This document shows, piece after piece, positions 30,455 to 64,000 of a stretch of DNA of 64,000 nucleotides. Position 1 is the stretch's first letter. Each line of letters begins with the position of its first letter. The translations under genes were made by a program, and so were the position numbers. The DNA lies in contig OX422186.1 in NCBI GenBank assembly GCA_949130485.1, positions 7,130,792 to 7,194,791 of the forward strand. The letters are read 5' to 3'. The notes under the pieces were generated by a model, which had not been told where the DNA came from, searched no databases, and saw only the letters and a list, made by a program, of their open reading frames with translations. The DNA comes from Agelas oroides. Taxonomy: Eukaryota > Porifera > Demospongiae > Agelasida > Agelasidae.

Positions 30455-30503
30455 ATGGTTACCTTGGCTCTGCTTGCGAGATTGTCACTGTTTTGGATTT
30501 CAG
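30455..30503 (+). CDS. Ig gene exon 1: signal peptide
   Basis: ATG at 30455 opens MVTLALLARLSLFWIS and then a donor GTGTGT at 30504 in phase 1. Joining to 30813 gives ...WISAVSAQLTV, with a hydrophobic core and a V-S-A cleavage site before Q. Length 49 nt exactly fits the phase needed by the next exon. This start was chosen because it alone supplies a leader in frame. Confidence 0.75.
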
Positions 30504-39500: not shown

Positions 39501-42500
39501 CAGTATTCTAGGCTTGTACTTGTGTGTATCTTTTAACCCTTTATATAATTAACCACCGAGGACGCTTTTTTGTGTCGTCTGACTTTGGCCGCATGTTATC
39601 AGTTGGCGCAATCCGTTTTGAAGGTAGGTTCTGTGCTAGCAGAAAGGGTGGGATAGGGGGAGGTGGGTGGGTGTACCCCTCTGGGTGACAGTGCATGGCC
39701 GCTGTTGCAGCTGGCTGTAGAAAAGCCCTGGTCAGTGCCGGATGGGCCATTTGTCTGCTTTCTTGCACAAAAAGGCATAGAAAACGCGCCTTTCACCTTG
39801 TAGGGACTCCATTTCTGGCATTTTAGGCAGCTTTTAGTCCAGAAGAGCATTCTCTGGTCAGAGGGCCCGGACTATTGAACGCTTGAGAATGTGTGGGTGT
39901 GGCTAAGGTCATGAACCCACAAAGAATGTGTCAATAAAGCTATGACTCAAGTTTCCAGTGCTAGCTCCAAGCAGAAGTGGAAATACGGACCAAGGAAGGT
40001 ATCCACACACACACACACACACACACCAGGCCGGTGGCCAGGATTTTTGGAAGAGGGGTTATACAGGGGTGGTATGTATGCATGCATGCATGCAAGACTA
40101 AGGGGGATTGAGAGCATGCTCCCCCAAGAAATTTAGATGTTCTGAGATTGTTTCTGAGGCCATTTTGGGACCGAAGCAGAGCCGTAGTAGCTACATGGCT
40201 TGCAGAGTATTGCGTCCAATTTTAGGCTGTCCATATATGCTTTTGCTAAGCCAGCTGACATCGAATTTTTCACAAAAGAAGGCACCATGGTTGGAAAAAC
40301 AGCAGATGGGGTGACAGATGGTGAAATAGTGCATGGCAATTTGGCAAGCTGTTGATCTCACTGTGCATGGTAAGAGGCTCCTTACAGCACATAATAAAAC
40401 ATGTGATCTATGCCCTATACTGTCTCCTTCAGTCATACCCAACATCACCTTCCCACTGGATGATCAGGTGTACACTGTGAACGAGACTGATCCAGTGACA
40501 TTCACCTGCTCAGCCACTGGTATCCCACCACCTGAGATCACCTGGATGAGGAACGGAGTAGTTCTAGATGAAAATACAGAACCGCGTGTCAGTCTCAATT
40601 TCTCTAATCCAGAGCAAGTTGTAACTGCTGATGGAGATATCTATTTAGTCACTCATACCCTCACCATCAGTAGCACCAGGGACGGTGACTCTGACACTTA
40701 CAAATGTGTGGCATCCAATGGAAACACAGAGACACCCAATGTGACTCAAGACTTTGAGCTGATTGTGCAAGGTAGGCTGCCTTTCTACTTATGTACTTGC
40801 GCTCGTATTTGATTTGATGTAAATTTATTTGTTTTTACCCAAATTGCCATTGTTTATTCCACAGTTTCTCCACAAATTATTGACCCACCAGAAAACCTCA
40901 CAGTTGTTGAAGCCAAAGAGGCCTCCTTCTCATGCCTTGCCACTGGCAGACCAATCCCCGAGATTGTGTGGGTCAGACTCAGGGACATGGCCAAGTTACA
41001 ATCTCAGTCATGTTTAACCATTGAAGAACAGGAGTTTGGAGACACACAGAGGAGTAACTTAACCATCATTGGTGTACAGCTTTCTGATAGTGGTGCCTAT
41101 GTCTGTGTGGCTACGAATGAAGTCGGGAGCATAATGGCTCATGTCACTCTGACAGTCCATGGTATGCTATAAGCAGGTGTTGAACAAACATTATTATGTT
41201 GTAAAACAGACATGTACAAATCATAGTTGTGGTAAGAACATGCTGCCGTTTTCTCCCTCAAAGAATTGAAATGTTTCACTCTTCATTTGAGCTTGTTCAC
41301 ATAAGCAACACAACACTAAACAAACTAGCAAGAACTGCGTGGGAGGCAGTTCAACAGGTGAACGAACAATGTATCAATTACCATGACTACATTGAGGAGC
41401 ACTTAGCAAAGTTACTTTTGTGTAAATCATAATCGCTGTTCCGATAAGTACATGTTTTTTATTATCAAGGATGATAACAATGTAAATATTGGTGCTTATT
41501 AACTTAGATGCTCCTGTTATACTTGACCCTCCGGAGAACCTGACAGTGGTGCATCCTCAGTCTGTGACCTTTCTCTGCAATGCCACTGCGCATCCCAGTC
41601 CACTGATCACATGGTGGATGATGGGTATCCAGCTGGTAGAACAAGCAGGAGAGGTTGAAATCAGTAACGATACATTTGGAGACAGCGACGTTCTCAGCAA
41701 TCTGACAATCATAATGGTTGACCCCTCTGATGCTGGCATGTATGTCTGCATGGCCACTAATGTTGCTGGACAGGATACTAAAGCTGTTGAACTCACTGTG
41801 CATGGTAAGAGGCTCCCTGTGATCTTGTAGCCCCAAAAAAACATGTGATCTATGCCCTATACTGTCTCCTTCAGTCATACCAAACATCACCTTCCCACTG
41901 GATGATCAGGTGTACACTGTGAACGAGACTGATCCAGTGACATTCACCTGCTCAGCCACTGGTATCCCACCACCTGAGATCACCTGGATGAGGAACGGAG
42001 TAGTTCTAGATGAAAATACAGAACCGCGAGTCAGTCTCAATTTCTCTAATCCAGAGCAAGTTGTAACTGCTGATGGAGATATCTATTTAGTCACTCATAC
42101 CCTCACCATCAGTAGCACCAGGGACGGTGATTCTGACACTTACAAATGTGTGGCATCCAATGGAAACACAGTGACACCCAATGTGACTCAAGACTTTGAG
42201 CTGATTGTGCAAGGTAGGCTGCCTTTCTACTTATGTACTTGTGCTCATACTTGATTTGATGTAAATTTACTTGTTTTTACCCAAATTGGCATTGTTTTTT
42301 CCACAGTTTCTCCACAAATTATTGACCCACCAGACAACCTCACAGTTGTTGAAGCTGAAGACGCCTCCTTCTCATGCGTTGCCGCTGGTAGACCTATCCC
42401 CGCCATTGTCTGGGTGAGACTCGCAGACACGGCCCAGTTACAATCTCAATCAGGTTTAACCATTGAAGAACAGGAGGCTGGAGACACGCAGAGGAGGAGT

Positions 42501-45500
42501 AACGTAACCATCATTGGTGTACAGCTTTCTGATAGTGGTGCCTATGTCTGTGTGGCTACGAATGAAGTGGGGAGCGTAATGGCTCATATCACCCTAACAG
42601 TCCATGGTATGCTACAAGCAGATATTGAACATACATTATTATGTAGTAAAACAGATATGTATAAACCATAGTTGTGGTAAGAACACGCTGCTCTTTTCTC
42701 CCTAAAAGAATAGAAATTGATTGAAATGTTTCACTCTTCATTTGAGCTTGTTCATGCACATAAGCAACACAACACTAAAGAAACTAGCAAGAACTGCATG
42801 GGAGGCAGTTCAACAGGTGAACGAACAATGTATCAATTACCATGATTACATTGAGGAGCACTTAGCAAAGTTACTTATGTGTAAGTCATAATTCTTGTTT
42901 CGACAAGTACATGTTTTTTATTATCAAGGATGATAACAATGTAAATATTGGTACTTATTAACTCAATCTTTTAGATGCTCCTATTATACTTGAGCCTCCG
43001 GAGAACCTGACAGTGGTGCATCCTCAGTCAGCGACCTTTCTCTGCAATGCCACTGCGCATCCCAGTCCACTGATCACATGGTGGAGGATGGGTATCCAGC
43101 TGGTGGAACAAGCAGGAGAGGTTGAAATCAGTAACGATACAATTGGAGAGAGCGAGGTTCTCAGCAATCTGACAATCATAATGGTTGACCCCTCTGATGC
43201 TGGCATGTATGTCTGCATGGCCACTAATGTTGCTGGACAGGATACTCAAGCTGTTGAACTCACTGTGCATGGTAAGAGGCTCCCTGTGATCTTGTAGCCC
43301 CAAAAAAACATGTGATCTATGCCCTATACTGTCTCCTTCAGTCGTACCCAACATCACCTTCCCACTGGATGATCAGGTGTACACTGTGAACGAGATTGAT
43401 CCAGTGACATTCACCTGCTCAGCCACTGGTATCCCACCACCTGAGATCACCTGGATGAGGAACGGAGTAGTTCTAGATGAAAATACAGAACCGCGTGTCA
43501 GTCTCAATTTCTCTAATCCAGAGCAAGTTGTAACTGCTGATGGAGATATCTATTTAGTCACTCATACCCTCACCATCAGTAGCACCAGGGACGGTGACTC
43601 TGACACTTACAAATGTGTGGCATCAAATGGAAACACAGAGACACCCAATGTGACTCAAGACTTTGAGCTGATTGTGCAAGGTAGGCTGCCTTTCTACTTA
43701 TGAACTTGCACTCGTATTTGATTTGATGTAAATTTATTTGTATTTACCCAAATTGCCATTGTTTTTTCCACAGTTTCTCCACAAATTATTGACCCACCAG
43801 AAAACCTCACAGTTGTTGAAGCCAAAGAGGCCTCCTTCTCATGCCTTGCCACTGGCAGACCAATCCCCGAGATTGTGTGGGTCAGACTTGCAGACATGGC
43901 CCAGTTACAATCCCAATCAGGTTTAACCATTGAAGGACAGGAGGTTGGAGACACGCGGAGGAGGAGTAACATAACCATCATTGGTGTACAGCTTTCTGAT
44001 AGTGGTGCCTATGTCTGTGTGGCTACGAATGAAGTCGGGAGTATAATGGCTCATGTCACCCTGACAGTCCATGGTATGCTATAAGCAGATGTTGAACAAA
44101 CATTATTATGTTGTAAAACAGGCATGTACAAATCATAGTTGTGGTAAGAACATGCTGCCGTTTTCTCCCTCAAAGAATTGAAATGTTTCACTCTTCATTT
44201 GAGCTTGTTCACATAAGCAACACAACACTAAAGAAACTAGCAAGAACTGCGTGGGAGGCAGTTCAACAGGTGAACGAACAATGTATCAATTACCATGACT
44301 ACATTGAGGAGCACTTAGCAAAGTTACTTTTGTGTAAATCATAATCGCTGTTCCGATAAATACATGCTTTTTATTATCAAGGATGATAACAATGGTACTT
44401 ATTAACTCAATCTTTTAGATGTTCCTATTATACTTGAGCCTCCGGAGAACCTGACAGTGGTGCATCCTCAGTCTGTGACCTTTCTCTGCAATGCCACTGC
44501 GCATCCCAGTCCACTGATCACATGGTGGATGATGGGTATCCAGCTGGTAGAACAAGCAGGAGAGGTTGAAATCAGTAACGATACATTTGGAGACAGCGAC
44601 GTTCTCAGCAATCTGACAATCATAATGGTTGACCCTTCTGATGCTGGCATGTATGTCTGCATGGCCACTAATGTTGCTGGACAGGATACTCAAGCTGTTG
44701 AACTCACTGTGCATGGTAAGAGGCTCCCTGTGATCTTGTAGTACAAAACAAAACATGTGATCTATGCCCTATACTGTCTCCTTCAGTCATACCAAACATC
44801 ACCTTCCCACTGGATGATCAGGTGTACACTGTGAACGAGACTGATCCAGTGACATTCACCTGCTCAGCCACTGGTATCCCACCACCTGAGATCACCTGGA
44901 TGAGGAACGGAGTAGTTCTAGATGAAAATACAGAACCGCGAGTCAGTCTCAATTTCTCTAATCCAGAGCAAGTTGTAACTGCTGATGGAGATATCTATTT
45001 AGTCACTCATACCCTCACCATCAGTAGCACCAGGGACGGTGATTCTGACACTTACAAATGTGTGGCATCCAATGGAAACACAGTGACACCCAATGTGACT
45101 CAAGACTTTGAGCTGATTGTGCAAGGTAGGCTGCCTTTCTACTTATGTACTTGTGCTCCTATTTGATTTGATGTAAATTTACTTGTTTTTACCCAAATTG
45201 GCATTGTTTTTTCCACAGTTTCTCCACAAATTATTGACCCACCAGACAACCTCACAGTTGTTGAAGCTGAAGACGCCTCCTTCTCATGCGTTGCCGCTGG
45301 TAGACCTATCCCCGCCATTGTCTGGGTGAGACTCGCAGACACGGCCCAGTTACAATCTCAATCAGGTTTAACCATTGAAGAACAGGAGGCTGGAGACACG
45401 CAGAGGAGGAGTAACGTAACCATCATTGGTGTACAGCTTTCTGATAGTGGTGCCTATGTCTGTGTGGCTACGAATGAAGTGGGGAGCGTAATGGCTCATA

Positions 45501-48500: not shown

Positions 48501-51500
48501 ATATGTATAAACCATAGTTGTGGTAAGAACACGCTGCTCTTTTCTCCCTAAAAGAATAGAAATTGATTGAAATGTTTCACTCTTCATTTGAGCTTGTTCA
48601 TGCACATAAGCAACACAACACTAAAGAAACTAGCAAGAACTGCATGGGAGGCAGTTCAACAGGTGAACGAACAATGTATCAATTACCATGATTACATTGA
48701 GGAGCACTTAGCAAAGTTACTTATGTGTAAGTCATAATTCTTGTTTCGACAAGTACATGTTTTTTATTATCAAGGATGATAACAATGTAAATATTGGTAC
48801 TTATTAACTCAATCTTTTAGATGCTCCTATTATACTTGAGCCTCCGGAGAACCTGACAGTGGTGCATCCTCAGTCAGCGACCTTTCTCTGCAATGCCACT
48901 GCGCATCCCAGTCCACTGATCACATGGTGGAGGATGGGTATCCAGCTGGTGGAACAAGCAGGAGAGGTTGAAATCAGTAACGATACAATTGGAGAGAGCG
49001 AGGTTCTCAGCAATCTGACAATCATAATGGTTGACCCCTCTGATGCTGGCATGTATGTCTGCATGGCCACTAATGTTGCTGGACAGGATACTAAAGCTGT
49101 TGAACTCACTGTGCATGGTAAGAGGCTCCCTGTGATCTTGTAGTACAAAACAAAACATGTGATCTATGCCCTATACTGTCTCCTTCAGTCGTACCCAACA
49201 TCACCTTCCCACTGGATGATCAGGTGTACACTGTGAACGAGACTGATCCAGTGACATTCACCTGCTCAGCCACTGGGATCCCACCACCTGAGATCACCTG
49301 GATGAGGAACGGAGTAGTTCTAGATGAAAATACAGAACCGCGTGTCAGTCTCAATTTCTCTAATCCAGAGCAAGTTGTAACTGCTGATGGAGATATCTAT
49401 TTAGTCACTCATACCCTCACCATCAGTAGCACCAGGGACGGTGACTCTGACACTTACAAATGTGTGGCATCCAATGGAAACACAGTGACACCCAATGTGA
49501 CTCAAGACTTTGAGCTGATTGTGCAAGGTAGGCTGCCTTTCTACTTATGAACTTGCACTCGTATTTGATTTGATGTAAATTTATTTGTTTTTACCCAAAT
49601 TGCCATTGTTTTTTCCACAGTTTCTCCACAAATTATTGACCCACCAGACAACCTCACAGTTGTTGAAGCCGAAGAGGCCTCCTTCTCATGCCTTGCCACT
49701 GGCAGACCAATCCCCGAGATTGTGTGGGTCAGACTTGCAGACATGGCCCAGTTACAATCTCAATCAGGTTTAACCATTGAAGAACAGGAGTTTGGAGACA
49801 CACAGAAGAGTAACTTAATCATCATTGGTGTACAGCTTTCTGATAGTGGTGCCTATGTCTGTGTGGCTACGAATGAAGTCGGGAGCATAATGGCTCATGT
49901 CACTCTGACAGTCCATGGTATGCTATAAGCAGGTGTTGAACAAACATTATTATGTTGTAAAACAGACATGTACAAATCATAGTTGTGGTAAGAACATGCT
50001 GCCCTTTTCTCCCTCAAAGAATTGAAATGTTTCACTCTTCATTTGAGCTTGTTCACATAAGCAACACAACACTAAAGAAACTAGCAAGAACTGCGTGGGA
50101 GGCAGTTCAACAGGTGAACAAACAATGTATCAATTACCATGACTACATTGAGGAGCACTTAGCAAAGTTACTTTTGTGTAAATCATAATCGCTGTTCCGA
50201 TAAATACATGCTTTTTATTATCAAGGATGATAACAATGGTACTTATTAACTCAATCTTTTAGATGTTCCTATTATACTTGAGCCTCCGGAGAACCTGACA
50301 GTGGTGCATCCTCAGTCTGTGACCTTTCTCTGCAATGCCACTGCGCATCCCAGTCCACTGATCACATGGTGGATGATGGGTATCCAGCTGGTAGAACAAG
50401 CAGGAGAGGTTGAAATCAGTAACGATACATTTGGAGACAGCGACGTTCTCAGCAATCTGACAATCATAATGGTTGACCCTTCTGATGCTGGCATGTATGT
50501 CTGCATGGCCACTAATGTTGCTGGACAGGATACTAAAGCTGTTGAACTCACTGTGCATGGTAAGAGGCTCCCTGTGATCTTGTAGTACAAAACAAAACAT
50601 GTGATCTATGCCCTATACTGTCTCCTTCAGTCATACCAAACATCACCTTCCCACTGGATGATCAGGTGTACACTGTGAACGAGACTGATCCAGTGACATT
50701 CACCTGCTCAGCCACTGGTATCCCACCACCTGAGATCACCTGGATGAGGAACGGAGTAGTTCTAGATGAAAATACAGAACCGCGAGTCAGTCTCAATTTC
50801 TCTAATCCAGAGCAAGTTGTAACTGCTGATGGAGATATCTATTTAGTCACTCATACCCTCACCATCAGTAGCACCAGGGACGGTGATTCTGACACTTACA
50901 AATGTGTGGCATCCAATGGAAACACAGTGACACCCAATGTGACTCAAGACTTTGAGCTGATTGTGCAAGGTAGGCTGCCTTTCTACTTATGTACTTGTGC
51001 TCATATTTGATTTGATGTAAATTTACTTGTTTTTACCCAAATTGGCATTGTTTTTTCCACAGTTTCTCCACAAATTATTGACCTCCCAGACAACCTCACA
51101 GTTGTTGAAGCTGAAGACGCCTCCTTCTCATGCGTTGCCGCTGGTAGACCTATCCCCGCGATTGTCTGGGTGAGACTCGCAGACATGGCCCAGTTACAAT
51201 CTCAATCAGGTTTAACCATTGAAGAACAGGAGGCTGGAGACACGCAGAGGAGGAGTAATGTAACCATCATTGGTGTACAGCTTTCTGATAGTGGTGCCTA
51301 TGTCTGTGTGGCTACGAATGAAGTGGGGAGCGTAATGGCTCATATCACCCTAACAGTCCATGGTATGCTACAAGCAGATATTGAACATACATTATTATGT
51401 AGTAAAACAGATATGTATAAACCATAGTTGTGGTAAGAACACGCTGCTCTTTTCTCCCTAAAAGAATAGAAATTGATTGAAATGTTTCACTCTTCATTTG

Positions 51501-54500
51501 AGCTTGTTCATGCACATAAGCAACACAACACTAAAGAAACTAGCAAGAACTGCATGGGAGGCAGTTCAACAGGTGAACGAACAATGTATCAATTACCATG
51601 ATTACATTGAGGAGCACTTAGCAAAGTTACTTATGTGTAAGTCATAATTCTTGTTTCGACAAGTACATGTTTTTTATTATCAAGGATGATAACAATGTAA
51701 ATATTGGTACTTATTAACTCAATCTTTTAGATGCTCCTATTATACTTGAGCCTCCGGAGAACCTGACAGTGGTGCATCCTCAGTCTGTGACCTTTCTCTG
51801 CAATGCCACTGCACATCCCAGTCCACTGATCACATGGTGGAGGATGGGTATCCAGCTGGTGGAACAAGCAGGAGAGGTTGAAATCAGTAACGATACATTT
51901 GGAGAGAGCGAGGTTCTCAGCAATCTGACAATCATAATGGTTGACCCCTCTGATGCTGGCATGTATGTCTGCATGGCCACTAATGTTGCTGGACAGGATA
52001 CTCAAGCTGTTGAACTCACTGTGCATGGTAAGAGGCTCCCTGTGATCTTGTAGCCCAAAAAAAACATGTGATCTATGCCCTATACTGTCTCCTTCAGTCG
52101 TACCCAACATCACCTTCCCACTGGATGATCAGGTGTACACTGTGAACGAGACTGATCCAGTGACATTCACCTGCTCAGCCACTGGTATCCCACCACCTGA
52201 GATCACCTGGATGAGGAACGGAGTAGTTCTAGATGAAAATACAGAACCGCGTGTCAGTCTCAATTTCTCTAATCCAGAGCAAGTTGTAACTGCTGATGGA
52301 GATATCTATTTAGTCACTCATACCCTCACCATCAGTAGCACCAGGGACGGTGACTCTGACACTTACAAATGTGTGGCATCAAATGGAAACACAGAGACAC
52401 CCAATGTGACTCAAGACTTTGAGCTGATTGTGCAAGGTAGGCTGCCTTTCTACTTATGTACTTGCGCTCGTATTTGATTTGATGTAAATTTATTTGTTTT
52501 TACCCAAATTGCCATTGTTTTTTCCACAGTTTCTCCACAAATTATTGACCCCCCAGACAACCTCACAGTTGTTGAAGCTGAAGACGCCTCCTTCTCATGC
52601 GTTGCCGCTGGTAGACCTATCCCTGCGATTGTCTGGGTGAGACTCGCAGACATGGCCCAGTTACAATCTCAATCAGGTTTAACCATTGAAGAACAGGAGG
52701 CTGGAGACACGCAGAGGAGGAGTAACGTAACCATCATTGGTGTACAGCTTTCTGATAGTGGTGCCTATGTCTGTGTGGCTACGAATGAAGTGGGGAGCGT
52801 AATGGCTCATATCACCCTAACAGTCCATGGTATGCTACAAGCAGATATTGAACATACATTATTATGTAGTAAAACAGATATGTATAAACCATAGTTGTGG
52901 TAAGAACACGCTGCTCTTTTCTCCCCAAAAGAATAGATATTGATTGAAATGTTTCACTCTTCATTTGAGCTTGTTCATGCACATAAGCAACACAACACTA
53001 AAGAAACTAGCAAGAACTGCATGGGAGGCAGTTCAACAGGTGAACGAACAATGTATCAATTACCATGATTACATTGAGGAGCACTTAGCAAAGTTACTTA
53101 TGTGTAAGTCATAATTCTTGTTTCGACAAGTACATGTTTTTTATTATCAAGGATGATAACAATGTAAATATTGGTACTTATTAACTCAATCTTTTAGATG
53201 CTCCTATTATACTTGAGCCTCCGGAGAACCTGACAGTGGTGCATCCTCAGTCAGCGACCTTTCTCTGCAATGCCACTGCGCATCCCAGTCCACTGATCAC
53301 ATGGTGGAGGATGGGTATCCAGCTGGTGGAACAAGCAGGAGAGGTTGAAATCAGTAACGATACATTTGGAGAGAGCGAGGTTCTCAGCAATCTGACAATC
53401 ATAATGGTTGACCCCTCTGATGCTGGCATGTATGTCTGCATGGCCACTAATGTTGCTGGACAGGATACTCAAGCTGTTGAACTCACTGTGCATGGTAAGA
53501 GGCTCCCTGTGATCTTGTAGCCCAAAAAAAACATGTGATCTATGCCCTATACTGTCTCCTTCAGTCGTACCCAACATCACCTTCCCACTGGATGATCAGG
53601 TGTACACTGTGAACGAGACTGATCCAGTGACATTCACCTGCTCAGCCACTGGTATCCCACCACCTGAGATCACCTGGATGAGGAACGGAGTAGTTCTAGA
53701 TGAAAATACAGAACCGCGTGTCAGTCTCAATTTCTCTAATCCAGAGCAAGTTGTAACTGCTGATGGAGATATCTATTTAGTCACTCATACCCTCACCATC
53801 AGTAGCACCAGGGACGGTGACTCTGACACTTACAAATGTGTGGCATCCAATGGAAACACAGTGACACCCAATGTGACTCAAGACTTTGAGCTGATTGTGC
53901 AAGGTAGGCTGCCTTTCTACTTATGTACTTGCGCTCGTATTTGATTTGATGTAAATTTATTTGTTTTTACCCAAATTGCCATTGTTTTTTCCACAGTTTC
54001 TCCACAAATTATTGACCCACCAGACAACCTCACAGTTGTTGAAGCCGAAGAGGCCTCCTTCTCATGCCTTGCCACTGGCAGACCAATCCCCGAGATTGTG
54101 TGGGTCAGACTTGCAGACATGGCCCAGTTACAATCTCAATCAGGTTTAACCATTGAAGAACAGGAGTTTGGAGACACACAGAAGAGTAACTTAATCATCA
54201 TTGGTGTACAGCTTTCTGATAGTGGTGCCTATGTCTGTGTGGCTACGAATGAAGTCGGGAGCATAATGGCTCATGTCACTCTGACAGTCCATGGTATGCT
54301 ATAAGCAGGTGTTGAACAAACATTATTATGTTGTAAAACAGACATGTACAAATCATAGTTGTGGTAAGAACATGCTGCCCTTTTCTCCCTCAAAGAATTG
54401 AAATGTTTCACTCTTCATTTGAGCTTGTTCACATAAGCAACACAACACTAAAGAAACTAGCAAGAACTGCGTGGGAGGCAGTTCAACAGGTGAACGAACA

Positions 54501-57500
54501 ATGTATCAATTACCATGACTACATTGAGGAGCACTTAGCAAAGTTACTTTTGTGTAAATCATAATCGCTGTTCCGATAAATACATGCTTTTTATTATCAA
54601 GGATGATAACAATGGTACTTATTAACTCAATCTTTTAGATGTTCCTATTATACTTGAGCCTCCGGAGAACCTGACAGTGGTGCATCCTCAGTCTGTGACC
54701 TTTCTCTGCAATGCCACTGCGCATCCCAGTCCACTGATCACATGGTGGATGATGGGTATCCAGCTGGTAGAACAAGCAGGAGAGGTTGAAATCAGTAACG
54801 ATACATTTGGAGACAGCGACGTTCTCAGCAATCTGACAATCATAATGGTTGACCCTTCTGATGCTGGCATGTATGTCTGCATGGCCACTAATGTTGCTGG
54901 ACAGGATACTAAAGCTGTTGAACTCACTGTGCATGGTAAGAGGCTCCCTGTGATCTTGTAGTACAAAACAAAACATGTGATCTATGCCCTATACTGTCTC
55001 CTTCAGTCATACCAAACATCACCTTCCCACTGGATGATCAGGTGTACACTGTGAACGAGACTGATCCAGTGACATTCACCTGCTCAGCCACTGGTATCCC
55101 ACCACCTGAGATCACCTGGATGAGGAACGGAGTAGTTCTAGATGAAAATACAGAACCGCGAGTCAGTCTCAATTTCTCTAATCCAGAGCAAGTTGTAACT
55201 GCTGATGGAGATATCTATTTAGTCACTCATACCCTCACCATCAGTAGCACCAGGGACGGTGATTCTGACACTTACAAATGTGTGGCATCCAATGGAAACA
55301 CAGTGACACCCAATGTGACTCAAGACTTTGAGCTGATTGTGCAAGGTAGGCTGCCTTTCTACTTATGTACTTGTGCTCATATTTGATTTGATGTAAATTT
55401 ACTTGTTTTTACCCAAATTGGCATTGTTTTTTCCACAGTTTCTCCACAAATTATTGACCTCCCAGACAACCTCACAGTTGTTGAAGCTGAAGACGCCTCC
55501 TTCTCATGCGTTGCCGCTGGTAGACCTATCCCCGCGATTGTCTGGGTGAGACTCGCAGACATGGCCCAGTTACAATCGCAATCAGGTTTAACCATTGAAG
55601 AACAGGAGGCTGGAGACACGCAGAGGAGGAGTAACGTAACCATCATTGGTGTACAGCTTTCTGATAGTGGTGCCTATGTCTGTGTGGCTACGAATGAAGT
55701 GGGGAGCGTAATGGCTCATATCACCCTAACAGTCCATGGTATGCTACAAGCAGATATTGAACATACATTATTATGTAGTAAAACAGATATGTATAAACCA
55801 TAGTTGTGGTAAGAACACGCTGCTCTTTTCTCCCTAAAAGAATAGAAATTGATTGAAATGTTTCACTCTTCATTTGAGCTTGTTCATGCACATAAGCAAC
55901 ACAACACTAAAGAAACTAGCAAGAACTGCATGGGAGGCAGTTCAACAGGTGAACGAACAATGTATCAATTACCATGATTACATTGAGGAGCACTTAGCAA
56001 AGTTACTTATGTGTAAGTCATAATTCTTGTTTCGACAAGTACATGTTTTTTATTATCAAGGATGATAACAATGTAAATATTGGTACTTATTAACTCAATC
56101 TTTTAGATGCTCCTATTATACTTGAGCCTCCGGAGAACCTGACAGTGGTGCATCCTCAGTCAGCGACCTTTCTCTGCAATGCCACTGCGCATCCCAGTCC
56201 ACTGATCACATGGTGGAGGATGGGTATCCAGCTGGTGGAACAAGCAGGAGAGGTTGAAATCAGTAACGATACATTTGGAGAGAGCGAGGTTCTCAGCAAT
56301 CTGACAATCATAATGGTTGACCCCTCTGATGCTGGCATGTATGTCTGCATGGCCACTAATGTTGCTGGACAGGATACTCAAGCTGTTGAACTCACTGTGC
56401 ATGGTAAGAGGCTCCCTGTGATCTTGTAGCCCAAAAAAAACATGTGATCTATGCCCTATACTGTCTCCTTCAGTCGTACCCAACATCACCTTCCCACTGG
56501 ATGATCAGGTGTACACTGTGAACGAGACTGATCCAGTGACATTCACCTGCTCAGCCACTGGTATCCCACCACCTGAGATCACCTGGATGAGGAACGGAGT
56601 AGTTCTAGATGAAAATACAGAACCGCGTGTCAGTCTCAATTTCTCTAATCCAGAGCAAGTTGTAACTGCTGATGGAGATATCTATTTAGTCACTCATACC
56701 CTCACCATCAGTAGCACCAGGGACGGTGACTCTGACACTTACAAATGTGTGGCATCAAATGGAAACACAGAGACACCCAATGTGACTCAAGACTTTGAGC
56801 TGATTGTGCAAGGTAGGCTGCCTTTCTACTTATGTACTTGCGCTCGTATTTGATTTGATGTAAATTTATTTGTTTTTACCCAAATTGCCATTGTTTTTTC
56901 CACAGTTTCTCCACAAATTATTGACCCCCCAGACAACCTCACAGTTGTTGAAGCTGAAGACGCCTCCTTCTCATGCGTTGCCGCTGGTAGACCTATCCCT
57001 GCGATTGTCTGGGTGAGACTCGCAGACATGGCCCAGTTACAATCTCAATCAGGTTTAACCATTGAAGAACAGGAGGCTGGAGACACGCAGAGGAGGAGTA
57101 ACGTAACCATCATTGGTGTACAGCTTTCTGATAGTGGTGCCTATGTCTGTGTGGCTACGAATGAAGTGGGGAGCGTAATGGCTCATATCACCCTAACAGT
57201 CCATGGTATGCTACAAGCAGATATTGAACATACATTATTATGTAGTAAAACAGATATGTATAAACCATAGTTGTGGTAAGAACACGCTGCTCTTTTCTCC
57301 CCAAAAGAATAGATATTGATTGAAATGTTTCACTCTTCATTTGAGCTTGTTCATGCACATAAGCAACACAACACTAAAGAAACTAGCAAGAACTGCATGG
57401 GAGGCAGTTCAACAGGTGAACGAACAATGTATCAATTACCATGATTACATTGAGGAGCACTTAGCAAAGTTACTTATGTGTAAGTCATAATTCTTGTTTC

Positions 57501-60500
57501 GACAAGTACATGTTTTTTATTATCAAGGATGATAACAATGTAAATATTGGTACTTATTAACTCAATCTTTTAGATGCTCCTATTATACTTGAGCCTCCGG
57601 AGAACCTGACAGTGGTGCATCCTCAGTCAGCGACCTTTCTCTGCAATGCCACTGCGCATCCCAGTCCACTGATCACATGGTGGAGGATGGGTATCCAGCT
57701 GGTGGAACAAGCAGGAGAGGTTGAAATCAGTAACGATACATTTGGAGAGAGCGAGGTTCTCAGCAATCTGACAATCATAATGGTTGACCCCTCTGATGCT
57801 GGCATGTATGTCTGCATGGCCACTAATGTTGCTGGACAGGATACTCAAGCTGTTGAACTCACTGTGCATGGTAAGAGGCTCCCTGTGATCTTGTAGCCCC
57901 AAAAAAACATGTGATCTATGCCCTATACTGTCTCCTTCAGTCGTACCCAACATCACCTTCCCACTGGATGATCAGGTGTACACTGTGAACGAGACTGATC
58001 CAGTGACATTCACCTGCTCAGCCACTGGTATCCCACCACCTGAGATCACCTGGATGAGGAACGGAGTAGTTCTAGATGAAAATACAGAACCGCGTGTCAG
58101 TCTCAATTTCTCTAATCCAGAGCAAGTTGTAACTGCTGATGGAGATATCTATTTAGTCACTCATACCCTCATCATCAGTAGCACCAGGGACGGTGACTCT
58201 GACACTTACAAATGTGTGGCATCCAATGGAAACACAGTGACACCCAATGTGACTCAAGACTTTGAGCTGATTGTGCAAGGTAGGCTGCCTTTCTACTTAT
58301 GTACTTGCGCTCGTATTTGATTTGATGTAAATTTATTTGTTTTTACCCAAATTGCCATTGTTTTTTCCACAGTTTCTCCACAAATTATTGACCCACCAGA
58401 CAACCTCACAGTTGTTGAAGCCGAAGAGGCCTCCTTCTCATGCCTTGCCACTGGCAGACCAATCCCCGAGATTGTGTGGGTCAGACTTGCAGACATGGCC
58501 CAGTTACAATCTCAATCAGGTTTAACCATTGAAGAACAGGAGTTTGGAGACACACAGAAGAGTAACTTAATCATCATTGGTGTACAGCTTTCTGATAGTG
58601 GTGCCTATGTCTGTGTGGCTACGAATGAAGTCGGGAGCATAATGGCTCATGTCACTCTGACAGTCCATGGTATGCTATAAGCAGGTGTTGAACAAACATT
58701 ATTATGTTGTAAAACAGACATGTACAAATCATAGTTGTGGTAAGAACATGCTGCCCTTTTCTCCCTCAAAGAATTGAAATGTTTCACTCTTCATTTGAGC
58801 TTGTTCACATAAGCAACACAACACTAAACAAACTAGCAAGAACTGCGTGGGAGGCAGTTCAACAGGTGAATGAACAATTTATTAATTACCATGACTACAT
58901 TGAGGAGCACTTAGCAAATTTACTTTTGTGTAAATCATAATCCCTGTTCCGATAAGTACATGTTTTTTATTATCAAGGATGATAACAATGTAAATATTGG
59001 TGCTTATTAACTTAGATGCTCCTGTTATACTTGACCCTCCGGAGAACCTGACAGTGGTGCATCCTCAGTCTGTGACCTTTCTCTGCAATGCCACTGCGCA
59101 TCCCAGTCCACTGATCACATGGTGGAGGATGGGTATCCAGCTGGTGGAACAAGCAGGAGTGGTTGAAATCAGTGACGATACAATCGGAGATGGTGAGGTT
59201 CTCAGCAATCTGACAATCATAATGGTTGACCCCTCTGATGCTGGCATGTATGTCTGCATGGCCACTAATGTTGCTGGACAGGATACTAAAGCTGTTGAAC
59301 TCACTGTGCATGGTAAGAGGCTCCCTGCGATCTTGTAGCCCAAAAAAAAACGTGATCTATGCCCTATACTGTCTCCTTCAGTCGTACCCAACATCACCTT
59401 CCCACTGGATGATCAGGTGTACACTGTGAACGAGACTGATCCAGTGACATTCACCTGCTCAGCCACTGGTATCCCACCACCTGAGATCACCTGGATGAGG
59501 AACGGAGTAGTTCTAGATGAAAATACAGAACCGCGTGTCAGTCTCAATTTCTCTAATCCAGAGCAAGTTGTAACTGCTGATGGAGATATCTATTTAGTCA
59601 CTCATACCCTCACCATCAGTAGCACCAGGGACGGTGATTCTGACACTTACAAATGTGTGGCATCCAATGGAAACACAGTGACACCCAATGTGACTCAAGA
59701 CTTTGAGCTGATTGTGCAAGGTAGGCTGCCTTTCTACTTATGTACTTGTGCTAATATTTGATTTGATGTAAATTTACTTGTTTTTACCCAAATTGGCATT
59801 GTTTTTTCCACAGTTTCTCCACAAATTATTGACCTCCCAGACAACCTCACAGTTGTTGAAGCTGAAGACGCCTCCTTCTCATGCGTTGCCGCTGGTAGAC
59901 CTATCCCCGCGATTGTCTGGGTGAGACTCGCAGACATGGCCCAGTTACAATCTCAATCAGGTTTAACCATTGAAGAACAGGAGGCTGGAGACACGCAGAG
60001 GAGGAGTAACGTAACCATCATTGGTGTACAGCTTTCTGATAGTGGTGCCTATGTCTGTGTGGCTACGAATGAAGTGGGGAGCGTAATGGCTCATATCACC
60101 CTAACAGTCCATGGTATGCTACAAGCAGATATTGAACATACATTATTATGTAGTAAAACAGATATGTATAAACCATAGTTGTGGTAAGAACACGCTGCTC
60201 TTTTCTCCCTAAAAGAATAGAAATTGATTGAAATGTTTCACTCTTCATTTGAGCTTGTTCATGCACATAAGCAACACAACACTAAAGAAACTAGCAAGAA
60301 CTGCATGGGAGGCAGTTCAACAGGTGAACGAACAATGTATCAATTACCATGATTACATTGAGGAGCACTTAGCAAAGTTACTTATGTGTAAGTCATAATT
60401 CTTGTTTCGACAAGTACATGTTTTTTATTATCAAGGATGATAACAATGTAAATATTGGTACTTATTAACTCAATCTTTTAGATGCTCCTATTATACTTGA

Positions 60501-63500
60501 GCCTCCGGAGAACCTGACAGTGGTGCATCCTCAGTCAGCGACCTTTCTCTGCAATGCCACTGCGCATCCCAGTCCACTGATCACATGGTGGAGGATGGGT
60601 ATCCAGCTGGTGGAACAAGCAGGAGAGGTTGAAATCAGTAACGATACAATTGGAGAGAGCGAGGTTCTCAGCAATCTGACAATCATAATGGTTGACCCCT
60701 CTGATGCTGGCATGTATGTCTGCATGGCCACTAATGTTGCTGGACAGGATACTCAAGCTGTTGAACTCACTGTGCATGGTAAGAGGCTCCCTGTGATCTT
60801 GTAGCCCAAAAAAAAACGTGATCTATGCCCTATACTGTCTCCTTCAGTCGTACCCAACATCACCTTCCCACTGGATGATCAGGTGTACACTGTGAACGAG
60901 ACTGATCCAGTGACATTCACCTGCTCAGCCACTGGTATCCCACCACCTGAGATCACCTGGATGAGGAACGGAGTAGTTCTAGATGAAAATACAGAACCGC
61001 GTGTCAGTCTCAATTTCTCTAATCCAGAGCAAGTTGTAACTGCTGATGGAGATATCTATTTAGTCACTCATACCCTCACCATCAGTAGCACCAGGGACGG
61101 TGATTCTGACACTTACAAATGTGTGGCATCCAATGGAAACACAGTGACACCCAATGTGACTCAAGACTTTGAGCTGATTGTGCAAGGTAGGCTGCCTTTC
61201 TACTTATGTACTTGTGCTAATATTTGATTTGATGTAAATTTACTTGTTTTTACCCAAATTGGCATTGTTTTTTCCACAGTTTCTCCACAAATTATTGACC
61301 TCCCAGACAACCTCACAGTTGTTGAAGCTGAAGACGCCTCCTTCTCATGCGTTGCCGCTGGTAGACCTATCCCCGCGATTGTCTGGGTGAGACTCGCAGA
61401 CATGGCCCAGTTACAATCTCAATCAGGTTTAACCATTGAAGAACAGGAGGCTGGAGACACGCAGAGGAGGAGTAACGTAACCATCATTGGTGTACAGCTT
61501 TCTGATAGTGGTGCCTATGTCTGTGTGGCTACGAATGAAGTGGGGAGCGTAATGGCTCATATCACCCTAACAGTCCATGGTATGCTACAAGCAGATATTG
61601 AACATACATTATTATGTAGTAAAACAGATATGTATAAACCATAGTTGTGGTAAGAACACGCTGCTCTTTTCTCCCTAAAAGAATAGAAATTGATTGAAAT
61701 GTTTCACTCTTCATTTGAGCTTGTTCATGCACATAAGCAACACAACACTAAAGAAACTAGCAAGAACTGCATGGGAGGCAGTTCAACAGGTGAACGAACA
61801 ATGTATCAATTACCATGATTACATTGAGGAGCACTTAGCAAAGTTACTTATGTGTAAGTCATAATTCTTGTTTCGACAAGTACATGTTTTTTATTATCAA
61901 GGATGATAACAATGTAAATATTGGTACTTATTAACTCAATCTTTTAGATGCTCCTATTATACTTGAGCCTCCGGAGAACCTGACAGTGGTGCATCCTCAG
62001 TCAGCGACCTTTCTCTGCAATGCCACTGCGCATCCCAGTCCACTGATCACATGGTGGAGGATGGGTATCCAGCTGGTGGAACAAGCAGGAGAGGTTGAAA
62101 TCAGTAACGATACAATTGGAGAGAGCGAGGTTCTCAGCAATCTGACAATCATAATGGTTGACCCCTCTGATGCTGGCATGTATGTCTGCATGGCCACTAA
62201 TGTTGCTGGACAGGATACTCAAGCTGTTGAACTCACTGTGCATGGTAAGAGGCTCCCTGTGATCTTGTAGCCCAAAAAAAACATGTGATCCATGCCCTAT
62301 ACTGTCTCCTTCAGTCGTACCCAACATCACCTTCCCACTGGATGATCAGGTGTACACTGTGAACGAGACTGATCCAGTGACATTCACCTGCTCAGCCACT
62401 GGTATCCCACCACCTGAGATCACCTGGATGAGGAACGGAGTAGTTCTAGATGAAAATACAGAACCGCGTGTCAGTCTCAATTTCTCTAATCCAGAGCAAG
62501 TTGTAACTGCTGATGGAGATATCTATTTAGTCACTCATACCCTCACCATCAGTAGCACCAGGGACGGTGACTCTGACACTTACAAATGTGTGGCATCCAA
62601 TGGAAACACAGTGACACCCAATGTGACTCAAGACTTTGAGCTGATTGTGCAAGGTAGGCTGCCTTTCTACTTATGTACTTGCGCTCGTATTTGATTTGAT
62701 GTAAATTTATTTGTTTTTACCCAAATTGGCATTGTTTTTTCCACAGTTTCTCCACAAATTATTGACCCCCCAGACAACCTCACAGTTGTTGAAGCTGAAG
62801 ACGCCTCCTTCTCATGCGTTGCCGCTGGTAGACCTATCCCCGCGATTGTCTGGGTGAGACTCGCAGACATGGCCCAGTTACAATCTCAATCAGGTTTAAC
62901 CATTGAAGAACAGGAGGCTGGAGACACGCAGAGGAGGAGTAACGTAACCATCATTGGTGTACAGCTTTCTGATAGTGGTGCCTATGTCTGTGTGGCTACG
63001 AATGAAGTGGGGAGCGTAATGGCTCATATCACCCTAACAGTCCATGGTATGCTACAAGCAGATATTGAACATACATTATTATGTAGTAAAACAGATATGT
63101 ATAAACCATAGTTGTGGTAAGAACACGCTGCTCTTTTCTCCCTAAAAGAATAGATATTGATTGAAATGTTTCACTCTTCATTTGAGCTTGTTCATGCACA
63201 TAAGCAACACAACACTAAAGAAACTAGCAAGAACTGCATGGGAGGCAGTTCAACAGGTGAACGAACAATGTATCAATTACCATGATTACATTGAGGAGCA
63301 CTTAGCAAAGTTACTTATGTGTAAGTCATAATTCTTGTTTCGACAAGTACATGTTTTTTATTATCAAGGATGATAACAATGTAAATATTGGTACTTATTA
63401 ACTCAATCTTTTAGATGCTCCTATTATACTTGAGCCTCCGGAGAACCTGACAGTGGTGCATCCTCAGTCAGCGACCTTTCTCTGCAATGCCACTGCGCAT

Positions 63501-64000
63501 CCCAGTCCACTGATCACATGGTGGAGGATGGGTATCCAGCTGGTGGAACAAGCAGGAGAGGTTGAAATCAGTAACGATACAATTGGAGAGAGCGAGGTTC
63601 TCAGCAATCTGACAATCGTAATGGTTGACCCCTCTGATGCTGGCATGTATGTCTGCATGGCCACTAATGTTGCTGGACAGGATACTCAAGCTGTTGAACT
63701 CACTGTGCATGGTAAGAGGCTCCCTGTGATCTTGTAGCCCAAAAAAAACGTGATCTATGCCCTATACTGTCTCCTTCAGTCGTACCCAACATCACCTTCC
63801 CACTGGATGATCAGGTGTACACTGTGAACGAGACTGATCCAGTGACATTCACCTGCTCAGCCACTGGTATCCCACCACCTGAGATCACCTGGATGAGGAA
63901 CGGAGTAGTTCTAGATGAAAATACAGAACCGCGTGTCAGTCTCAATTTCTCTAATCCAGAGCAAGTTGTAACTGCTGATGGAGATATCTATTTAGTCACT
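30455..64000 (+). CDS. Giant Ig-superfamily protein gene, 5' part with tandem Ig-exon array
   Basis: Spliced model: signal exon, Ig1, Ig2, Ig3, Ig4, CCP, Ig5, Ig6, Ig7, then 16 complete A-B-C Ig triads and part of a 17th A exon (coordinates in the exon entries). Every junction is GT-AG and every intron is phase 1, so all internal exons are multiples of three. About 5,894 codons are visible without a stop, with 55 complete Ig-like domains and one CCP. The mature N-terminus should be extracellular. Many N-x-S/T sites are present. The 3' end is missing, so a transmembrane or cytoplasmic part cannot be judged. The I-set/C2-type Ig folds resemble those of adhesion and receptor proteins (hemicentin, Dscam, RPTP-like), but the N-terminal VWA domain of hemicentin is absent. 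Role in adhesion, matrix or self/non-self recognition is inference. Confidence 0.88.
30813..31139 (+). CDS. Ig gene exon 2: Ig domain 1
   Basis: 109 codons, phase 1-1. Canonical Ig: WLYC (B-strand Cys), ITWTKDG (core Trp), ASDNGNYVC (DxGxYxC). Acceptor TTCTACAG, donor GTGAGT. Confidence 0.85.
31296..31399. mobile_element. Palindromic MITE, TAGTTCCCAGG family
   Basis: GAGCCTAGTTCCCAGG at the left and CCTGGGAACTAGGCTA at the right are near-perfect inverted copies around 70 bp, in the intron between Ig1 and Ig2. This is the cleanest copy of the dispersed family. Confidence 0.65.
31544..31876 (+). CDS. Ig gene exon 3: Ig domain 2
   Basis: 111 codons, phase 1-1. LLRCSASG, VVWIRNGEQ and SSDAGVYQC give all canonical Ig landmarks. 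Donor GTTGAT is slightly unusual but keeps phase. Confidence 0.85.
33493..33783 (+). CDS. Ig gene exon 4: Ig-like domain 3 without cysteines
   Basis: 97 codons, phase 1-1, acceptor ACACACAG, donor GTAAGT. It keeps IDWQRNG and NDLGVYTV, the positions of the core Trp and the DxGxY motif, but both disulfide cysteines are replaced. Frame and splice phases fit the chain, so it is probably a real but disulfide-less domain. Confidence 0.75.
34077..35079. mobile_element. 1.0-kb inverted-repeat element with GGGGCCCC-rich ends
   Basis: Left end TACCGGTGTAAGCGCGATAT and right end ATATCACGCGGACACCGGTA are inverted with a few differences. Both ends continue into repeated 'GATATGGGGCCCCCC / CGCTAGTG' blocks. 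The interior has a segment (about 34316-34390) that recurs in diverged form near 36866-36940, so a second partial copy is present there. It lies in the Ig3-Ig4 intron. Confidence 0.65.
35568..35895 (-). mobile_element. tRNA-derived repeat unit (minus orientation) with 32-bp inverted ends
   Basis: CTCAGAGGATCTTGCCTCAT at 35568 is inverted at the other end (ATGAGGCAAGATCCTCTGAG, to about 35895). Between them is a minus-strand tRNA-like sequence and about 150 bp of companion sequence. The arms also pair with the plus-oriented copy at about 35930-36185, giving a large hairpin. Confidence 0.55.
35638..35710 (-). pseudogene. tRNA-like sequence inside a SINE-type repeat
   Basis: On the minus strand GTAGCTCAGTGGCAGAGC (A box and D arm), a CTGGC/GCCAG anticodon stem with a 7-nt loop GGCTCAA, and GGGTTCGACTCCC (B box and T arm) form a cloverleaf. 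Position 33 is G rather than U and the acceptor stem pairs poorly, so it is tRNA-derived rather than a working tRNA. Confidence 0.65.
35930..36185 (+). mobile_element. tRNA-derived repeat unit (plus orientation)
   Basis: Inverted, diverged copy of the 35600-35870 unit. The companion sequence (GGAGAGAATTTTCTGGTCAA ...) precedes a tRNA-like part at 36073-36143 with GTAGCTCAGTGGCAGAGC and a B box weakened to GGGTTTGACTCC. Confidence 0.55.
36480..36850 (-). pseudogene. Retrotransposon pol (integrase-region) fragment, broken
   Basis: On the minus strand the segment contains LTADGGRLYYAGG, as found just before the integrase zinc-binding region, then WDGSSWAS.. in one frame while GMDLVGPL and KWAEAAALKDKSA, typical of Ty3/gypsy integrase cores, appear in others. 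The zinc-binding part is missing, and frame changes and stops break it. It is a dead insertion in the Ig3-Ig4 intron. Confidence 0.6.
37180..37515 (+). CDS. Ig gene exon 5: Ig domain 4
   Basis: 112 codons, phase 1-1. VNITCVSSG, ILWYLGG and AHDGEYMCMG are canonical. Several N-glycosylation sites. Acceptor TTGCTGCAG, donor GTATGA. Confidence 0.87.
37754..37921 (+). CDS. Ig gene exon 6: CCP/sushi domain
   Basis: 56 codons, phase 1-1, encoding CGILPNPANGEV...TATYSCDRGYNLVG...TRTCEATGEWTGNAPTCQ, with the four cysteines, the 'Y.C..GY.L.G' core and the 'W.G..P.C' end of complement-control-protein modules. It is the only non-Ig domain visible in the gene. Confidence 0.9.
38255..38566 (+). CDS. Ig gene exon 7: Ig domain 5
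   Basis: 104 codons, phase 1-1. AVLSCSATG, FTWTKVLPNG and DTAGYRCTAEN are the Ig landmarks. Acceptor TTCACAG, donor GTAAGA. Confidence 0.87.
38636..39004 (+). CDS. Ig gene exon 8: Ig domain 6
   Basis: 123 codons, phase 1-1, the longest Ig exon. ISIICSARG and DNTGNFTCEAF give both cysteines. The core Trp is replaced by Phe (SIRFLRED), and a Gly/Ser-rich insert lies between the C and E strands. Confidence 0.85.
39170..39481 (+). CDS. Ig gene exon 9: Ig domain 7 (single-copy relative of array exon C)
   Basis: 104 codons, phase 1-1. VFTCVADG, ITWWRRE and GDAAEYVCMATNEV. The ITWW and VCMATN text resembles the array C exon, so this may be the single-copy relative from which C-type exons grew. Confidence 0.87.
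39533..39930. mobile_element. Truncated piggyBac-type element
   Basis: It starts TTAACCCTTTA and shares several blocks (GGGGGAGGTGGGTGGG; 'CACCTTGTAGGG') with the complete element at 11121-11572, but the right TTAA end is not seen. It lies in the intron before the array. Confidence 0.4.
40345..40369 (+). pseudogene. Truncated tail of an array C exon (5' boundary of the tandem array)
   Basis: The 25 bp ending CTCACTGTGCATG, followed by donor GTAAGAGGCTCC, match the 3' end of every C exon and its downstream intron. Sequence to the left is unrelated. There is no acceptor, so it is not an exon. Confidence 0.8.
40433..41804 (+). CDS. Array unit 1 (alpha): Ig exons A1, B1, C1
   Basis: A1 40433-40771, B1 40865-41161, C1 41508-41804. 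A: FTCSATG, ITWMRNG, DGDSDTYKC. B: ASFSCLATG, IVWVRLRD, DSGAYVC. C: TFLCNATA, ITWWMMG, DAGMYVC. B1 has an extra Cys (QSQSCLTI) where all other copies have Gly. C1 starts APVILDPP, shared only with C13. A1 has NTETPN. Confidence 0.9.
41875..43271 (+). CDS. Array unit 2 (beta): Ig exons A2, B2, C2
   Basis: A2 41875-42213, B2 42307-42606 (300 nt, TQRRSN), C2 42975-43271. A2 begins VIPN with CCA for Pro; NTVTPN. B2 has LADTAQ. C2 has WWRMG and TIGESEV. All landmarks intact. Confidence 0.9.
43342..44715 (+). CDS. Array unit 3 (alpha variant): Ig exons A3, B3, C3
   Basis: A3 43342-43680, B3 43774-44073, C3 44419-44715. A3 has NEIDP instead of NETDP. B3 is a mosaic: an alpha-type start (FSCLATG) but the 300-nt length and RRRSN of beta, with unique EVGDTRRRSN. 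C3 has DVPIILEPP, WWMMG and TFGDSDV. Confidence 0.9.
44787..46183 (+). CDS. Array unit 4 (beta): Ig exons A4, B4, C4
   Basis: A4 44787-45125 (VIPN, NTVTPN), B4 45219-45518 (LADTAQ), C4 45887-46183 (TIGESEV). Very close to unit 2. Confidence 0.9.
46254..47650 (+). CDS. Array unit 5 (beta): Ig exons A5, B5, C5
   Basis: A5 46254-46592 (VVPN, NTETPN), B5 46686-46985 (LADMAQ), C5 47354-47650 (TFGESEV). Nearly identical to units 9 and 12. Confidence 0.9.
47721..49117 (+). CDS. Array unit 6 (beta): Ig exons A6, B6, C6
   Basis: A6 47721-48059 (NTVTPN), B6 48153-48452 (LADTAQ), C6 48821-49117 (TIGESEV, QDTKAV). C6 is followed by the 'GTACAAAACAAAAC' intron variant otherwise seen after alpha C exons. 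Confidence 0.9.
49189..50559 (+). CDS. Array unit 7 (alpha): Ig exons A7, B7, C7
   Basis: A7 49189-49527, B7 49621-49917 (297 nt, EFGDTQKSN, LIIIGV), C7 50263-50559 (WWMMG, TFGDSDV, QDTKAV). First unit of the regular three-unit pattern. Confidence 0.9.
50631..52027 (+). CDS. Array unit 8 (beta): Ig exons A8, B8, C8
   Basis: A8 50631-50969 (VIPN), B8 51063-51362 (IIDLPDN, a Pro-to-Leu change shared with B11, B14, B15), C8 51731-52027 (alpha-like SVTF start but WWRMG, TFGESEV: a mosaic). Confidence 0.9.
52098..53494 (+). CDS. Array unit 9 (beta): Ig exons A9, B9, C9
   Basis: A9 52098-52436 (NTETPN), B9 52530-52829, C9 53198-53494 (TFGESEV). The B-C intron carries the TCTCCCCAAAAGAATAGATA variant shared only with unit 12. 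Confidence 0.9.
53565..54935 (+). CDS. Array unit 10 (alpha): Ig exons A10, B10, C10
   Basis: A10 53565-53903, B10 53997-54293 (EFGDTQKSN), C10 54639-54935 (WWMMG). Starts exactly 4,376 bp after unit 7. Confidence 0.9.
55007..56403 (+). CDS. Array unit 11 (beta): Ig exons A11, B11, C11
   Basis: A11 55007-55345 (VIPN), B11 55439-55738 (IIDLPDN), C11 56107-56403 (TFGESEV). Starts exactly 4,376 bp after unit 8, with a handful of base differences. Confidence 0.9.
56474..57870 (+). CDS. Array unit 12 (beta): Ig exons A12, B12, C12
   Basis: A12 56474-56812 (NTETPN), B12 56906-57205, C12 57574-57870. Starts exactly 4,376 bp after unit 9 and shares its private intron variant. Confidence 0.9.
57941..59312 (+). 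CDS. Array unit 13 (alpha): Ig exons A13, B13, C13
   Basis: A13 57941-58279 (private LIISSTRD for LTISSTRD), B13 58373-58669, C13 59016-59312 (APVILDPP like C1, but WWRMG and private AGVVEISDDTIGDGEV). Starts exactly 4,376 bp after unit 10. C13 is the most divergent C exon. Confidence 0.9.
59382..60778 (+). CDS. Array unit 14 (beta): Ig exons A14, B14, C14
   Basis: A14 59382-59720 (VVPN, NTVTPN), B14 59814-60113 (IIDLPDN), C14 60482-60778 (TIGESEV). Confidence 0.9.
60848..62244 (+). CDS. Array unit 15 (beta): Ig exons A15, B15, C15
   Basis: A15 60848-61186, B15 61280-61579 (IIDLPDN), C15 61948-62244. Essentially a copy of unit 14. Confidence 0.9.
62315..63711 (+). CDS. Array unit 16 (beta): Ig exons A16, B16, C16
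   Basis: A16 62315-62653, B16 62747-63046 (IIDPPDN), C16 63415-63711 (private NLTIVMVD for NLTIIMVD). Confidence 0.9.
63780..64000 (+). CDS. Array unit 17: start of exon A17 (cut by window edge)
   Basis: The first 221 nt of an A exon (VVPN start, FTCSATG, ITWMRNG), still open at the edge, showing that the array continues to the right. Confidence 0.9.

Follow-up and report, generated by a model that had tools for sequence, protein, structure and literature searches.

A predicted giant adhesion GPCR with a recently growing array of Ig-exon cassettes in the sponge Agelas oroides

The locus analysed here raises the question of what kind of protein is encoded where one cassette of three Ig exons is repeated in tandem many times over, whether all of these exons belong to a single gene, and how the array came to grow. 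The window, by which we mean the whole stretch of 64,000 nucleotides analysed, corresponds to C4:7130792-7194791 on contig C4 (12.6 Mb) of an assembly of 259.3 Mb in 141 contigs. The gene model reaches past the window end, and the DNA examined was therefore the window together with the 80 kb downstream of it, the initial 100 bases of the downstream piece being the same as the final 100 bases of the window. Neither the window nor this downstream DNA contains any N.

The results suggest that the whole locus is likely to be one gene for a giant adhesion GPCR, as predicted from this one assembly. The predicted gene runs from 30455 to 72844 in window coordinates continued downstream, ending 8.8 kb past the window, and has 79 exons with 23,121 coding bases, or 7,706 codons (residues); GT-AG sites were found at all 78 introns, and the one stop codon (TAA) stands at the end. 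The 5' half encodes, in order, a signal peptide, Ig1 to Ig4, a CCP domain, Ig5 to Ig7, 19 copies of an A-B-C cassette and an A-like Ig exon (A20), and the 3' half consists of a Cys-less exon G1, exons G2 to G7, a GPS exon and four 7TM and tail exons. Altogether the predicted receptor has 65 Ig-like exons and a single CCP exon in the same open frame, 64 of the 65 keep the C-(W/F)-(Y/F)xC core, and 221 of 225 N-glycosylation sequons fall in the ectodomain. An earlier note on this DNA had claimed at least 55 Ig-like domains before the window end, and 55 Ig-like exons were indeed counted there, the Cys-Trp-Tyr-Cys core being present in 54.

The single-copy 5' part, like all features of the gene given below, is on the plus strand. 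Exon 1 (30455..30503) contains the start codon and a predicted signal peptide (MVTLALLARLSLFWIS-AVSA-Q), with a hydrophobic segment at residues 1-20. It is followed by Ig1 (30813..31139), which was delimited by splice sites and Pfam and has eleven paralog matches at 51-78% identity, and by Ig2 (31544..31876), Ig4 (37180..37515) and Ig5 (38255..38566), each of which was identified by splice sites, Pfam and paralog matches. The CCP/Sushi exon (37754..37921; Pfam PF00084, E 3.1e-14) lies between Ig4 and Ig5, and the last two exons ahead of the array are Ig6 (38636..39004), which is 34% identical to cassette exon A, and Ig7 (39170..39481), which shares 40-44% identity with exons B and C of the cassette. 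Pfam reported six Ig_3 stretches and one Sushi domain in this region, and the in-phase GT-AG joins agree with the signal peptide, seven Ig-like exons and single CCP domain that had been described ahead of the array. The Ig3 exon (33493..33783) gave no Pfam match when scanned alone and has neither core cysteine, while the tryptophan and tyrosine positions are retained; since paralogous exons at 55-79% identity exist, it appears to be a genuine domain of Ig-like type that lacks the cysteines.

The array of A-B-C cassettes occupies 40424..64000 in the window, its units being located by motif search and self-comparison and its exons being cut at the splice sites. The first unit starts at 40424 and the following ones each 1441-1468 bp further on. 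In the first unit, exon A (339 bp) is at 40433..40771, exon B (297 bp) at 40865..41161 and exon C (297 bp) at 41508..41804. The 16 full units and part of a 17th (230 bp) reported earlier for the window were counted again here, and every one of the 48 complete cassette exons is open and bounded by AG on its 5' side and GT on its 3' side. The cut-off 17th A exon, the 49th cassette exon in the window, is open as well. Past the window end the array continues to a total of 19 units and the final A-like Ig exon, with unit 17 regular, unit 18 carrying about 0.7 kb of additional DNA in its B-C intron, and unit 19 diverged. Exon sizes are 339 bp for A, 297 or 300 bp for B (two B types) and 297 bp for C, so that the cassette exons vary in length by 3 bp only, while the cassette introns take many sizes, and every cassette exon has phase 1 at both ends. 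A sample of four cassette exons matched Ig models of Pfam, and titin was among the PDB matches of the cassette. TRF, whose maximum period of 500 is below the unit length, reported no repeat in the window.

The nature of the protein was determined mainly from its 3' end, for which the C-terminal 822 residues were used in a Pfam scan and in a phmmer search against the PDB. A secretin-type 7TM domain was matched by Pfam 7tm_2 at E 4.6e-36 over positions 3-250 of 250 and the GPS at E 4.9e-14; the GPS sequence CHCNHLTNFG carries HL|T, with the cut predicted after residue 7289. ADGRG2 was the best PDB match (E 9.4e-66), across GAIN, GPS and 7TM, and among the 40 PDB matches listed 37 were adhesion GPCRs and three were CRF receptors; the 7TM domain aligns to ADGRG2, ADGRL3 and ADGRD1 among others. 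The ADGRG2 alignment begins about 190 residues ahead of the GPS match, and it is because of this alignment and their position that the exons concerned, which had no Pfam match of their own, are labelled GAIN-like. Inspection of the 3' end for a transmembrane segment or tail, as had been suggested earlier, found both, the 7TM domain being of secretin type and the tail cytoplasmic. Calx-beta, pentraxin and EPTP domains were not found by Pfam in the single-copy region, the four cassette exons, A20 or the C-terminal 822 residues.

A working mechanism can be proposed by analogy with known adhesion GPCRs, for which HL|T cleavage and the tethered agonist are described in a figure legend of PMC8878244. 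The GAIN domain would cleave itself at HL|T, and the Ig arm would remain attached after cleavage, reaching a partner on another cell, in the matrix or on a microbe, and a pull on the arm, or its removal, would uncover the tethered agonist, at the TNFGCLV following the GPS, for the 7TM domain. The repeats would act mainly as a spacer setting reach and elasticity, and the binding site would more likely lie in the single-copy tip from Ig1 to the CCP domain.

How the array grew can be read from the similarity of its units. The 16 units in the window are 1 to 74 substitutions apart in pairwise comparison, no two being identical, and the units of the array fall into short units (1, 3, 7, 10, 13 and 17; 1440-1445 bp) and long ones, with many pairs of the same type differing by just 1-20 substitutions per about 1467 bases. 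Units 7-9 (49180..53555) and units 10-12 (53556..57931) are 99.77% identical, with 10 differences in 4,376 bases. Units 3-5 are 99.18% identical to units 7-9 (33 substitutions), and units 13-15 differ from units 7-9 by 56 and from units 10-12 by 50 substitutions. As assembled, the array is a higher-order repeat of 4.4 kb blocks, each of three units and nine Ig domains, and the 99.77% identity of units 7-9 and 10-12 points to recent copying of nine-Ig blocks, as expected of unequal exchange or conversion. Because the cassette exons are phase 1-1, every duplicated block remains in frame, and unequal exchange between copies can therefore add or remove three or nine ectodomain domains at once. The rapid copy-number change proposed in the earlier note is borne out insofar as the unit sequences record repeated recent duplication of blocks.

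The cassette itself may have arisen from the Ig6-Ig7 pair, as suggested by the resemblance among exons B, C and Ig7 (44-45% identity between B and C, 40-44% between either of them and Ig7) and by the 34% identity of exon A to Ig6. In addition, the intron between Ig7 and the first A exon holds the truncated end of a C exon together with the start of its intron (40346..40423), matching at 84-88%, and this is probably what remains of one more unit.

Whether all units are joined in one transcript was considered against a known Ig-exon array, that of Dscam. Alternative exons of Dscam are diverged, and the protein has fibronectin III domains and a single transmembrane helix at its end. It is conceivable, and in our estimate unlikely, that the units of the present array are spliced in the same manner, as alternatives or with units skipped, to give proteins of few to many units. 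The shared 1-1 phase, which would keep any subset of exons in frame, is in line with such use, as are passages of PMC1397879 and PMC3236188 in which the Ig-exon arrays of arthropod Dscam are chosen mutually exclusively. However, a choice among same-type units 1-20 substitutions apart would yield little diversity, and each cassette consists of three different exons in a fixed order. The likeness to arthropod Dscam lies in the tandem duplication of Ig exons, as treated in parts of PMC4835542 and PMC3236188, while the near-identical units of the Agelas gene do not fit the diverged, mutually exclusive alternatives of Dscam. Within a single gene for a giant adhesion GPCR, skipping of units that varies the length of the arm may occur.

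Another reading, to which we give a low probability, is that the unit count was inflated by the assembly through placing two haplotypes of the array end to end. Allelic differences of about the size seen between units 7-9 and 10-12 (10 in 4,376) are usual in outbred invertebrates, and these two blocks could thus be allelic. On the other hand, there is no N in the DNA examined, all 16 units are distinct, and units 13-15 are separated from the two blocks by 56 and 50 substitutions; nor was a near-identical cassette or N-terminus present elsewhere among the matches listed, where the best identities were 78% and 79%. Even half of the array would be long.

Selection on the two halves of the predicted receptor was then compared. 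Among the 17 units compared, the mean divergence was 0.009 for exon A, 0.045 for exon B and 0.022 for exon C, in comparison to 0.028-0.038 for the three introns, and the cassette pN/pS, a ratio made rough by conversion between units, was 0.19 for A, 0.34 for B and 0.70 for C. Exon A looks constrained by both divergence and pN/pS; for exon B, which is more diverged than the introns, only the ratio points to constraint; and exon C, with its pN/pS of 0.70, is hardly constrained. For the GPCR half, dN/dS was 0.33 against the paralog at C4:10.00M, with 11 of the 12 G and T exons compared, and 0.34 (9 exons) and 0.32 (5 exons) against two further paralogs of the same genome, and on these ratios the GPCR half is judged to be under purifying selection.

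These values also bear on the idea of a polymorphic receptor for allorecognition or microbe recognition, in which unit number and unit variants would mark self. The recent block duplications and the clustering of related Ig genes on contigs C12 and C4 are compatible with it, and one sponge adhesion GPCR gene is given as up-regulated on microbial patterns in a part of PMC6208332. But the units have a strongly conserved exon A, and near-identical repeats count mildly against a diversifying recognition surface, so that we consider such a role for the predicted adhesion GPCR rather improbable.

The same genome was searched for relatives of each part of the gene, and the number of candidates scored was 75 of 974 for the N-terminus, 127 of 687 for the cassette, 132 of 232 for the 7TM domain, 114 of 114 for the GPS and 101 of 195 for G1, absences being provisional. 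In the N-terminal search the Ig1 exon was found at no fewer than 11 other loci, of which seven lie on C12, three on C4 and the last on C67; Ig2, Ig3 and Ig4 follow in order at 10 of the 11, and the eleventh has no Ig2 among the matches listed. The cluster at C12:946-1122k comprises seven or more related Ig genes whose arrays are short. Fewer cassette copies were listed at the relatives, for example at C12:946-952k, where at least four C-A pairs and another C are spaced by about 1.3 kb, and outside this gene the top identity among the matches listed was 78% for the cassette and 79% for the N-terminus. A search at the DNA level listed matches of 68-86% on C12 and C4, and since it missed the array's own copies too, it has no bearing on a second array. 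Counted per exon, there were at least 157 matches in the genome for the 7TM search and 100 for the GPS search. The receptor at C4:10.00M has the same GAIN-7TM half, with G1 found at 76% identity, an Ig5-like exon 1.3 kb and a B-like exon (42%) 0.4 kb upstream of G1; because only 1.3 kb separates Ig5 from G1, an array would not fit there, and this gene looks like a form without it. The 7TM relatives at C4:5.56M and C4:10.31M had no nearby cassette among the matches listed. One scan of viral contigs found no related proteins.

The paralogs on C12 are relevant to the suspicion that two genes were read as one, namely a secreted or matrix Ig-array protein and then a separate adhesion GPCR. Among the matches listed, a GPS occurs at just one of the seven C12 loci that share the Ig N-terminus (at 1078116), and G1 occurs at four C12 sites with no adjoining GAIN; after one of these, a 771-base piece holds another Ig exon (Pfam I-set, E 1.4e-14). 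From these C12 paralogs, with G1 lacking a listed GAIN and followed by a further Ig exon, the Ig arm appears not always to be joined to a GPCR. In the present gene, by contrast, the last C exon (C19, end at 68526), A20 and G1 (start at 69352) are separated by introns of only 72 and 366 bp with the frame open, residues 20-7318 have no hydrophobic segment above the cut-off, so that no second signal peptide shows, and at C4:10.00M G1 likewise stands between Ig exons and GAIN. Two genes are therefore regarded as very unlikely. A matrix protein ending in the array was rejected in view of the GAIN-like, GPS and 7TM exons 3' of it; the earlier description as a giant adhesion, matrix or recognition protein holds in outline for a predicted giant surface receptor and is not supported as to the matrix. 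A tyrosine kinase tail was also considered for the C12 paralogs and rejected, with no PF07714 among the matches listed for C12:944k-1122k (129 of 1,424 candidates scored).

The predicted one-gene receptor can be compared with several known systems. The vertebrate receptors ADGRF5 and ADGRA carry a few Ig domains on the N-terminal side of GPS and 7TM. Giants of the hemicentin and titin type have dozens of I-set domains in series, with repeats mostly old and diverged; the long tandem Ig series is shared with them, although they are not 7TM receptors. The earlier note knew no named family with this layout, yet the layout is that of an adhesion GPCR, and Ig domains are among those found on sponge (Amphimedon) adhesion GPCRs (PMC4302439, section 8 and Figure 4 legend). 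As in these Amphimedon Ig/I-set receptors, the Ig domains precede GPS and 7TM, while that section mentions no comparable Ig array. ADGRV1/VLGR1 is called the largest adhesion GPCR, at about 6,300 residues, in passages of PMC8878244 and PMC13197933, and the Agelas gene is similar to it in being a giant adhesion GPCR with many ectodomain repeats. The two differ in that ADGRV1 is given Calx-beta repeats, pentraxin and EPTP in a part of PMC8878244, in comparison to the three-domain cassette of Ig I-set type in Agelas, and in that the Agelas gene is predicted at 7,706 residues with near-identical, recent repeats. Its C-terminal half is nearest ADGRG2 among solved structures, a list with no ADGRV1 chain and hence no direct comparison. 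Among the open-licence PMC papers listed, we found neither an adhesion GPCR carrying dozens of Ig domains that are nearly identical nor one predicted to be longer than ADGRV1.

According to a portion of PMC8878244, adhesion GPCRs are thought to signal when a long arm is pulled or comes unbound, and the effect of arm length is hard to test. The cassette arm, the close paralog free of an array and the more distant relatives with fewer cassette matches provide a natural length series in the same genome. The locus is a protein-coding array arranged like a higher-order satellite and caught growing in a sponge, and it offers a way to study how the arm of an adhesion receptor grows and what its length does. 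One could speculate, at long odds, that arm length is a rapidly evolving trait, with nine-Ig blocks gained and lost and individuals differing, and that length sets the reach or force of agonist release or serves as a cell-identity signal where tissues meet.

Several further features were observed around the gene. Just upstream of the signal peptide, at 28342..29557, lie fragments of a second 7TM region of adhesion-GPCR type (50-79% identical to that of the present gene), one inverted and one with a stop, and one of them is the 7TM search match at C4:7159682-7159819; two of the ORFs were scanned with no Pfam match, and the fragments are the rearranged remains of a neighbouring gene. The exon-like ORF 1920-2228 of the minus strand contains HCVAGLGR, which we take to be the signature of a PRL-type phosphatase, and the Pfam DSP-PTPase match was below the cut-off (E 0.0016). 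An inverted repeat (83%) at 35648-36133, which looks like a tRNA-derived element, overlaps a minus-strand tRNA-Glu-like gene (35637-35710), and pieces of similar sequence recur some 48 kb downstream. One interspersed element, probably a short transposon, is present in opposite orientations in the Ig2-Ig3 intron (32512-33470) and between exons B and C of unit 18 (66068-66766, continued coordinates).

Elsewhere in the genome, 16 Dicty_CAR-type matches were found, and a part of PMC4302439 gives 14 such receptors for Amphimedon. Introns are short, and most matches fall on contigs with numbers from 1 to 23; for Ephydatia, passages of PMC7385117 give 23 chromosomes and 326 Mb. GPCR-PIPK is described as sponge-only in a portion of PMC12716839, and in our search for it PIP5K matches occurred at three sites, none coinciding with the 16 Dicty_CAR matches. 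PF07714 kinase matches form large clusters at C8:4.86-5.93M and C15:1.23-1.49M, and Ig_3 matches at a regular spacing of about 345 bp at C3:569-572k, 757-760k and 888-890k are apparently more Ig exon arrays.
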